Assembly (NCBI GenBank): GCA_009779255.1
Contig: WREQ01000008.1
Location: forward strand, 1 to 45,712
Direction: 5' to 3'
From: Dehalococcoidia bacterium
GTDB lineage: Bacteria; Chloroflexota; Dehalococcoidia; Dehalococcoidales; UBA1222
DNA length: 45,712 nt
The translations under genes and the position numbers were made by a program. Shown in pieces: positions 7,883 to 11,210 of the stretch (the first letter of the stretch is position 1; each line of letters opens with the position of its first letter). A model generated the notes under the pieces. It did not search any database and had not been told where the DNA came from. It worked only from the letters and a program-made list of their open reading frames with translations.

Positions 7883-10609
7883 CTACAGCAACCCTCCGTA
7901 CCTTCGCACGAAAATAGTCTTAAAAACCGTGGCTAACGCCATATACAGCACGATCGTGCCGGCAAGCCACGCGAAATATACGGGCGGCAGTGCGGCAAGC
8001 CCAATCGCGTCACCAAACGGGGTAAACGGCATAACAGTCACGACGAGGATACCCGCAAACGTCAGCAGAATAACCGGTAGCGAAGCGCGGCTTTGTACAA
8101 ATGGTATCTTAGGCGTACGGATCATATGGATAACGAGGGACTGGCTCCACATCGATACCACGAACCATCCGGCCTGGAATACCGCGATGAATAGCACCGC
8201 CTGAGCTGACAGAACGTCCGCCCTGAAATCGAGAGCGCCTGCATTCACGCCGACAACCAGCGGACAGATAATAAAGAACATCAGCAGGTAGGTTGTTATA
8301 TCGAACACGGAGCTTGTCGGTCCGAACCATACCATGAATTTGCCGATACTGGAGGCGTCCCACTTGCGCGGCTTGGCAAGAAATTCCTTGTCTACGTTGT
8401 CCCACGGGATGGCGATACAGGATATGTCGTAGATAAGATTGAGCAGCAGCAGCTGTATCGGCAGCATCGGCAGGAACGGCAGAAACGCGCTGGCCACCAT
8501 GATGGAAAACATATTGCCGAAGTTAGAGCTGGCCGTTATCTTGATGTATTTGATGATATTGGCATAAATTTTGCGTCCCTCGATGACGCCGTTTTTCAAT
8601 ACCATCAAATCCTTTTCGATCAAAATCATGTTGGCCGATTCTTTGGCGATATCGACGGCGGTGTCAACAGAAATACCCACGTCGGCGGCACGCATGGCCG
8701 CCGCGTCGTTTATACCGTCTCCCATATAGCCCACTGTATGTCCGTTTTCGCGCAACGTAGTCACTATCAGCGTTTTTTGCTTCGGCGACAATTTGGCGAA
8801 CACATCCGTCTGCTCGACGGCTACCTTTAATTGCGCGAGGCTTAAACTTTCGATATCCGAGCCAAGCAGTATCTTGTCGGCAGACAAGCCGACCTGTTTA
8901 CATACGCTTTTTGTAACGGCATCGTTATCTCCGGTCAACACCTTTATGGCCACGCCATATTCGTGAAGCGATGCGATAGCATCCGTAGCGCTTTCTTTGG
9001 GCGGGTCAAGGAAGGCCAGGTATCCAATCAGCACCATCTCGCTCTCATCGGCTATAGAGAATGTCCGTTCGGGCAACTGGTGCGTCTTTTGCGCCACACC
9101 CAAAACGCGCAAACCGTCGGAATTATATTTGTTACATGTATCCATGATTTCCCGACGCAGCACATCCGTCATCGGTTCCACACGTCCCTGATATTCGGCA
9201 AAGGTGGAAATTGCCAGCATTTCCTCCATCGCGCCCTTTGTAATCATTTGTGTTTTGCTGTTCTTGTCAGATACGATTACACTCATGCGGCGGCGGTTGA
9301 AGTCAAACGGGATTTCGTCTATTTTTACATAAGCGTTTTCATTCTCAATAACCTTCTCCTCGCGCGCCCGCTGTATAATGGAAACATCCATCAGGTTTTT
9401 CAGGCCGGTCTGATAGTGACTGTTGAGAAACGCATGGCGAAGCACTCTGGTGTCACTGTTGCCATGTATATCAAGATGGTATTCCAGAATAATTTTATCC
9501 TGCGTCAGCGTACCGGTTTTATCCGTACAAAGAATATCCATCGCCCCGAAATTCTGAATAGCGTTGAGTTCCTTGACGATAACCTTCTTTTTGGACATGG
9601 TGGCCGCGCCTTTGGCGAGATTCGCGGATACGATCATCGGTAGCATTTCGGGCGTAAGCCCGACGGCGACTGAAAGCGCGAACATAAACGCCTGAAACCA
9701 ATCGCCTTTGGTAAAGCCGTTGACAAATAATACGACGGGCACCATTACGAGCATGAAACGTATGAGTAGCCACGAAACGGAATTTATGCCTTTTTCGAAG
9801 CTGGTCGGGGGCGTTTTGGCGCGCAACTGCCCCGCGATGCCGCCGAATACGGTGTCATCGCCGACGGCCAGCGCCAGCGCCTGTGCCGAACCGGAAATGA
9901 CGGTACTTCCCATAAAGGCCAGGTTGTTCAAAGCCAGCGGGTTTGTCGGTTTGCCCTTGAGAGCCGCGCCGAATTTCTCAACCGGTTCGCTTTCACCAGT
10001 AAGCGACGACTGGCTGATAAACAAGTCTTTTGCCTGCAAAATGCGTATGTCGGCAGGAATAATGTCCCCAGCAGCCAGATGGATAACATCGCCGACAACA
10101 ATTTCATCCAGGGGGATTTCCTTTTTCTCAGAAAACGGTTCACCAGAGGCGTCTGTTTCATAGCAGCGCGTGACGGCAACGGTCGTCTCCACCAGTTCGC
10201 CCAGTTTTTCCGCCGCATTTCCGCTGCGAAACTCCTGAACAAAGCGCAGCATGCCGCTGATAAACACCATCGTCAAAACAATGATAACAGCGGTTGGATC
10301 TTTTTCCCCCGGAGCGGCGGCGATAACATCAGTCGCAAACGACAATCCGGCCAGTACGAATAAAACAACCGTAAACGGGTTAATAAATGCATTCCAAAGC
10401 CGATGGAAAATAGAGATCTTTTTCTGTTTTGTTATGATGTTCGAACCGTATTGATCACGCATTTCATCGACCTTGTCGGCATCGTAGCCTTCAAGGCTGG
10501 TATCATATTGAATGAGGATTGTTTCTGACGACTTAACCGCGGCGTTCAGCAGGCGTTTTTTGGCCCTGTCCGCCCGCGTGGTGGAGATAATGTTGATATT
10601 CTTTTTCAT
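7883..10609 (-). CDS. mgtA: Magnesium-translocating P-type ATPase (MgtA family)
   Basis: [67 protein letters not shown]; 908 aa, typical MgtA/MgtB length. Confidence 0.95.
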
Positions 10610-10645
10610 GTCGCGGCCTCCTGTTTCAAGGTGAGGCGCAGATCG

Positions 10646-10738
10646 TCAAACAGGCAGGCCGGAGGCGGGAATAGGTGCCGTGCTGTTCGACAAGCTGTCA
10701 CCGTTGTCGAATCCGATACTACTACCATCGGGTTCCAT
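10646..10738 (-). CDS. Putative MgtL-like leader peptide (30 aa) of mgtA
   Basis: MEPDGSSIGFDNGDSLSNSTAPIPASGLPV*; SD AAAGGAGG before ATG; ends 37 nt before the mgtA ATG. Confidence 0.55.
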   Translation of the reverse strand: MEPDGSSIGFDNGDSLSNSTAPIPASGLPV

Positions 10739-11210
10739 ATCCTCGCCTCCTTTCAAAAATGAAAGCCTTGTTGTCGCGTGACAACAAAGCCAGGGCTTTT
10801 AAGGGACCACCCACACTACCCCACAACAGCAGCCTCCATCCCTATGGCAGCCACATCCGCCGATTAACGTTACATTATACTGCAAACATTGAGGAAATAT
10901 CCATTGCATGAATGGCGTGTTTTAAGCATGGCATCCAAATCATCAAAGGTCTCTGCGGTGTCTTTTCTCCAGACGCCGGACGCGGCTATACCGTATTGCG
11001 ATAGAAACCAGTGTTATGTCAACACTCCGGCCTCATACCAGGTTGCCAAACAGCCAGCCGCAGCAGAAGCATGTCCCGCATCCTCGGGACGAAACTCTCT
11101 GTATCCATTTCCCCGTGGACTGCCGTGTTCAATATATGTCGCTATGCGCCAGCGTCTGAAAACCGATACCGCAGACACTTGCAACAAGCGTCCCAAGTTA
11201 GTAAGACTTT

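Follow-up and report, generated by a model that had tools for sequence, protein, structure and literature searches.

A conserved short reading frame before mgtA and mgtE as a candidate leader-peptide sensor of low Mg2+

The mgtA locus and its upstream reading frame

The window, that is, the whole stretch of 45,712 nucleotides under analysis, carries on its minus strand the gene mgtA (10609..7883), whose 908-aa product was identified as a Mg2+-importing P-type ATPase by an equivalog match to TIGR01524 (1167 bits; cutoff, 611) and a match to PRK15122 (1203 bits). Directly upstream on the same strand, we read an open reading frame (ORF) of 30 codons (10738..10646; ATG GAA CCC GAT GGT AGT AGT ... 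TGA), which is translated as MEPDGSSIGFDNGDSLSNSTAPIPASGLPV and is hereafter called the leader. A preliminary description of this DNA had placed a short ORF directly 5' of mgtA, and both the frame and the identity of the gene were confirmed. The leader is preceded by a strong Shine-Dalgarno (SD) site of the GAGG type, AAAGGAGG (10753..10746, minus strand), located 7 nt from its ATG, and 36 nt separate its stop codon from mgtA. The first four residues, MEPD, are those of E. coli MgtL, as had been claimed and as comparison with the fetched MgtL sequence established; the further characterization of the peptide as Asp/Pro-rich holds loosely, with 3 Asp, 1 Glu and 4 Pro among the 30 residues. A putative sigma-70-like promoter, TGGATA-18-TATAAT (10874..10903, minus strand), was picked up by a consensus scan only, with 10/12 positions matching.

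The genome containing the window measures 1.14 Mb and is 77% complete. Its host lineage is provisional because MAG names were inconsistent in the sampled set. In two members of the window's family mgtA was the same as in termite-gut MAGs deposited as Dehalococcoidia. Close MgtA copies within the sampled order were confined to the window's family, and the next-nearest ones came from Bacillota and from assorted termite-gut MAGs.

Upstream of the leader, alignment with the related locus L007, whose MgtA is 88% identical to that of the window, pointed to the remnant of an M-box riboswitch (10814..10885, minus strand). This remnant shares 69% identity with the 5' end of the L007 M-box region, after which a gap follows, about 100 nt of the aptamer having been lost. 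The M-box of L007 itself scored 95.5 bits against RF00380; an Rfam scan of the window's leader region, run in strict and permissive mode, returned nothing relevant and no M-box at gathering score. A terminator-like hairpin with a T-run (10764..10791, minus strand) lies 5' of the leader, and its L007 equivalent follows the M-box. Among 20 mgtA loci checked, ten had an M-box riboswitch upstream, and the leader was present in all ten. As judged from the sequence of the locus, Mg2+ control in the window may rest on the leader alone. The reverse arrangement was seen in L123, where an M-box and a terminator stand directly 5' of mgtA with no leader, providing a natural leaderless control among the close relatives.

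Coding signature and association with Mg2+ importers

To quantify the enrichment of such leaders, we set 107 distinct mgtA upstream regions against 98 starts of other genes at those loci. An ORF with an SD of at least 5 and D/E at residue 2 was present in 46 of the 107 mgtA upstream regions, whereas the same ORF criterion selected 5 of the 98 other starts and, in dinucleotide shuffles, a mean of 2.95 and a maximum of 5. Because D/E at residue 2 was part of the selection rule, the conservation of this residue is partly by construction; a few members (L184, L057, L109 and L076) carry Asn at this position. The window leader combines the three features that define the family, namely a GAGG-type SD (conserved across the family), an M[DE]-small-[GD]-(G)S(S) start and a Mg2+ importer downstream, and it scored 28.8 bits against the family model R2 as the sole match in its genome, the window itself being in the training set. 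Leaders of the window type start with MEPDGSS (window), MDPDGSS (L007 and L034), MEPDGSN (L033), MESDGSI (L047), MDADGSS (L006) or MDPDASS (L077). Other leaders in the mgtA set include MDAGSSNGIKPKGR, METGSKNGENPGGR and MEPGSSHSPDPDGR, and the majority motif is M[D/E]xGSS, without a second acidic residue or a proline. A possible divergent leader, starting with MDDSH, MDDGH or MDDAG, was noted upstream of mgtA in Lactobacillales and Pectinatus (L083, L089, L096 and L072). At about 2848-2890 of L035, the leader-like sequence GGAACCTGACAGT follows ACG and not ATG, which could reflect a non-standard start or a decayed leader.

The leaders carry the signature of a translated frame. Over codons 2-7 of the window-type leaders, entropy was 0.19, 0.29 and 1.03 at codon positions 1, 2 and 3, respectively, and 24 nearest-neighbor leader pairs showed 54, 63 and 106 differences at these positions. 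Single-base codon differences were synonymous in 44 of 97 cases (0.45) in frame vs. 19 of 95 (0.20) and 26 of 105 (0.25) in the two other frames, an in-frame excess with a Fisher p of 8e-5 (given also as p about 1e-4 or lower). Both expectations of the preliminary description, namely that the ORF would be kept in close relatives (as in MDPDGSS, MEPDGSN and MDADGSS) and that synonymous and nonsynonymous changes would not be equally tolerated, were thus borne out. The C-terminal half of the leaders is not conserved and varies in length and sequence, which makes a C-terminal arrest peptide unlikely.

We built a sequence-only search profile from 30 mgtA leaders, with no mgtE leader in the training set, and found a match in 60 of 391 Clostridia genomes. 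The best 30 loci in Clostridia all precede Mg2+ importers, 25 of them mgtE and 5 mgtA, and MgtE is a channel non-homologous to MgtA. The identity of mgtE was established by TIGR00400 and PF01769 for five proteins, by BLAST for the remaining fetched ones, and by inspection for L184. No Rfam match and no M-box were found at the mgtE leader loci. Among 350 Bacilli genomes there was one weak match, with no clear leader at that site, and in 25 chosen genomes, several of them training members, every positive one had a single match, located at the leader site. The Negativicutes matches precede MgtE-like genes in two cases (by inspection) and mgtA in the others, with one that appears spurious. Two Negativicutes leaders upstream of MgtE-like genes, in L200 and L201, read MEAGGSSSPNPLGR and MEASGSSSPSPVGR. 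A literature search returned no report of the family, subscription papers being outside its reach and absence therefore no proof; a conserved leader-peptide family before mgtA and mgtE, in many gut bacteria, has apparently gone unreported.

Predicted helices between leader and importer start

In the window, four RNA segments of the minus strand could form a switch. Segment 1, UUCGACAA (10704..10711, leader codons 10-12), is predicted to form a hairpin with segment 2, UUGUCGAACAG (10683..10693, codons 16-19), which in turn can form 11 contiguous pairs with segment 3, GGCCUGCCUGUUUGACGA (10643..10660). The latter covers the last leader codons and the stop codon and would act as an anti-SD, since it can pair alternatively with segment 4, AAACAGGAGGCC (10615..10626), which holds the mgtA SD site, as recognized from direct reading and pairing. 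The two partners of segment 3 are mutually exclusive, with predicted energies of -12.7 kcal/mol for segment 2 and -17.6 kcal/mol for segment 4. The predicted helix 1:2, joining codons 10-12 to codons 16-18, retains all 8 pairs in L007, and 10 of the 11 pairs of helix 2:3, between codons 16-19 and the leader end, are also kept there, with one double change. For the predicted helix 3:4, between the leader end and the mgtA SD, L007 uses a different 3:4, and the comparison involves two close sequences only. An 11-bp helix such as that of the window, taken alone, was matched in 6 of 300 shuffles. In folds with a ribosome held at the leader start, helix 3:4 formed and the mgtA SD was hidden, while with a ribosome at the leader stop the SD was freed. 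A second candidate anti-SD, GCGCCUC (10633..10639, minus strand), is predicted to pair with the mgtA SD in both the window and L007, and it is possible that the leader SD, by pairing with CGCCUC, serves as an anti-anti-SD.

In most families another arrangement was seen: the anti-SD belonging to the downstream gene pairs with codons 4-10 of the leader, and compensatory changes are present. Pair types vary per position in this helix, for example AU/CG at +24 and CG/UA at +25. Duplexes between leader and anti-SD were more stable with native than with swapped partners (mean of -16.9 vs. -14.0 kcal/mol; permutation p 5e-5, 0 of 20000 permutations being as good). The anti-SD also pairs with the importer SD, and these SD hairpins were stronger than those of shuffles (Fisher p 6e-9). 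In three loci (L006, L038 and L165) the leader is followed by an intrinsic terminator instead of the SD hairpin; by eye, leader codons 10-14 of L038 (CTCAAACGATGG) are complementary to the 5' arm of its terminator (CCACCGTTTGAG) except for one base. Given the pairing of codons with the anti-SD and with the L038 terminator arm, the translated part of the leader would therefore be the competing strand on two platforms. Judged from these pairings, the sequence conservation of codons 4-10 is partly due to RNA pairing and not to the peptide. Within the window group the codon 4-10 helix was not significant (ranks of 0.44 for L001, 0.75 for L007, 0.22 for L033 and 0.97 for L034), so it was dropped as a candidate for the window's switch, where codons 16-19 are predicted to pair instead. 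A second in-frame CGA AGT (Arg-Ser) was observed at leader codons of about 13-17 in L037, L047, L049, L145, L178 and L192; this recurring motif may also compete for the ACTTC anti-SD.

Proposed ribosome-based Mg2+ sensing and competing explanations

The sequence evidence supports an ORF that is conserved as coding sequence, its link to Mg2+ importers, and predicted helices that are mutually exclusive. We consider it probable that a cis-acting leader peptide controls mgtA as a ribosome-based sensor of low Mg2+ and that it belongs to a widespread family preceding mgtA and mgtE. Ribosomes would translate the leader, whose acidic start (E-P-D in the window) would render early elongation sensitive to low Mg2+ and cause pausing or drop-off. 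The position of the ribosome on the leader would then select the downstream RNA helix: pairing of a leader segment with the anti-SD would leave the importer SD free or prevent a terminator, whereas pairing of the anti-SD with the SD would hide it. The outcome at low Mg2+ would be more importer synthesis. That the leader is translated, that it responds to Mg2+ and that ribosomes drop off are inferred, as is the direction of regulation in the window itself, where in the folding model simple drop-off could yield the wrong sign. Against a sensor speaks that the typical family member carries a single early acidic residue and lacks Pro, by published criteria a weak destabilizing motif, and that a few carry Asn at residue 2.

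The main rival of the ribosome-based sensor holds that the ORF is translated just to move ribosomes over the switch, the peptide having no role and its residues being kept by pairing. Such a reading would account for the position of codons 4-10 inside a covarying long-range helix, for Ser codons 5-6 being nearly always AGT, and for the unconserved C-terminal half. Yet codons 2-3 lie outside this helix, and the acidic codon 2 varies between GAC, GAA, GAT and GAG (residue 2 being partly selected), codon 3 is NCN in most cases, any of the four bases occurring at its third position, and window-type leaders retain D4, encoded by GAT or GAC. We therefore regard this explanation as unlikely. Ordinary translational coupling, in which translation to the leader stop would open the mgtA SD while the leader senses no Mg2+, agrees with the 36 nt between the window's leader stop and mgtA and with the fold in which the SD becomes accessible once a ribosome sits at the stop. 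It is distinctly improbable, however, as leader stop and importer start lie anywhere from about 20 to more than 300 nt apart across the wider family, L038 and L006 have a terminator after the leader, and the restriction to Mg2+ importers is left unexplained. A direct Mg2+-binding riboswitch with an incidental ORF would fit the conserved helices, the downstream Mg2+ importers and the M-box aptamers that often adjoin, but it is very unlikely in view of the frame-specific codon signature, the conserved SD and start codon, the missing Rfam match at the mgtE loci, and a model whose conserved core is the SD and first codons. Finally, short ORFs are common and a four-residue match could be an accident, but that the ORF arose by chance and begins with MEPD by coincidence is effectively ruled out by the enrichment at mgtA (46/107 vs. 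5/98), the conservation in relatives, the codon signature and the importer link in the blind search.

To our knowledge, leader-peptide, ribosome-based Mg2+ sensing is known from enterobacteria only. Experiments on MgtL have shown that E2 and D4 are required and that EttA takes part when Pro3 occupies the P site; the acidic-Pro-acidic motif of the peptide destabilizes ribosomes, drop-off at low Mg2+ switches mgtA on, and the control works through Rho-dependent termination (PMC11282234). The leaders resemble MgtL of E. coli and Salmonella in their position before mgtA, in the MEPD and acidic-Pro-acidic start of the window, and presumably in that leader translation sets downstream expression. They differ in that residue 5 is Pro in MgtL (MEPDP) but Gly in the window and in relatives (MDPDG, MESDG, MDADG), that the window leader is longer and lacks the PRRR(L)K tail, that many family members lack D4 and Pro3, and that SD sequestration or an intrinsic terminator is predicted in place of Rho-dependent termination. 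When run on L219, which holds the mgtL region of E. coli, model R2 gave no match even with E allowed up to 10. The MgtL-like reading of the preliminary description thus stands as to the conserved coding ORF, the Mg2+-importer link and the acidic-Pro-acidic start; homology to mgtL was not recovered by the model, and the family is wider than proposed, including mgtE. The Salmonella mgtC-mgtB intergenic uORF mgtQ is likewise short, with D2 and E5 shown by experiment to be required, and its stems 1:2 and 3:4 alternate with 2:3, the transporter SD lying inside 3:4 (PMC8092293). The same stem layout is predicted in the window, although mgtQ has 8 codons, sits inside an operon and differs in sequence and lineage.

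Among RNA elements, the M-box (ykoK leader, RF00380) is also a Mg2+-sensing RNA before mgtA and often shares the leader's transcript, but it is a ligand-binding aptamer and a separate module, as L123 (M-box without leader) and the mgtE leaders (without M-box) illustrate. In mycobacteria, the M-box-associated uORF2/Rv1805A is likewise small and conserved and lies 3' of an M-box, but it is Mycobacteria-specific, has an invariant Pro7, precedes pe20 and not mgtA, and is regarded as a product and not a sensor (PMC12810186). The Thioalkalivibrio mgtE motif is an RNA element that precedes mgtE and covers the SD, but it is a riboswitch candidate in one genus only, with no uORF reported (PMC11109978).

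We give even odds to the broader proposal that acid-start leaders mediate low-Mg2+ sensing by ribosomes across Clostridia, Negativicutes and some termite-gut lineages, control both MgtA and MgtE, arose independently of MgtL, are often stacked on an M-box and outlived a decayed M-box in the window genome. If true, nascent-peptide Mg2+ sensing would be a general bacterial strategy serving two unrelated importers, one ion would be sensed twice in series on a single transcript, by a peptide and by a riboswitch, and natural variation would reveal rules of early ribosome destabilization. Named isolates with the leader include Phascolarctobacterium faecium, Christensenella intestinihominis, Lacrimispora celerecrescens and Peptostreptococcus russellii, and Phascolarctobacterium, Christensenella and Lacrimispora are examples of carriers among culturable gut bacteria.
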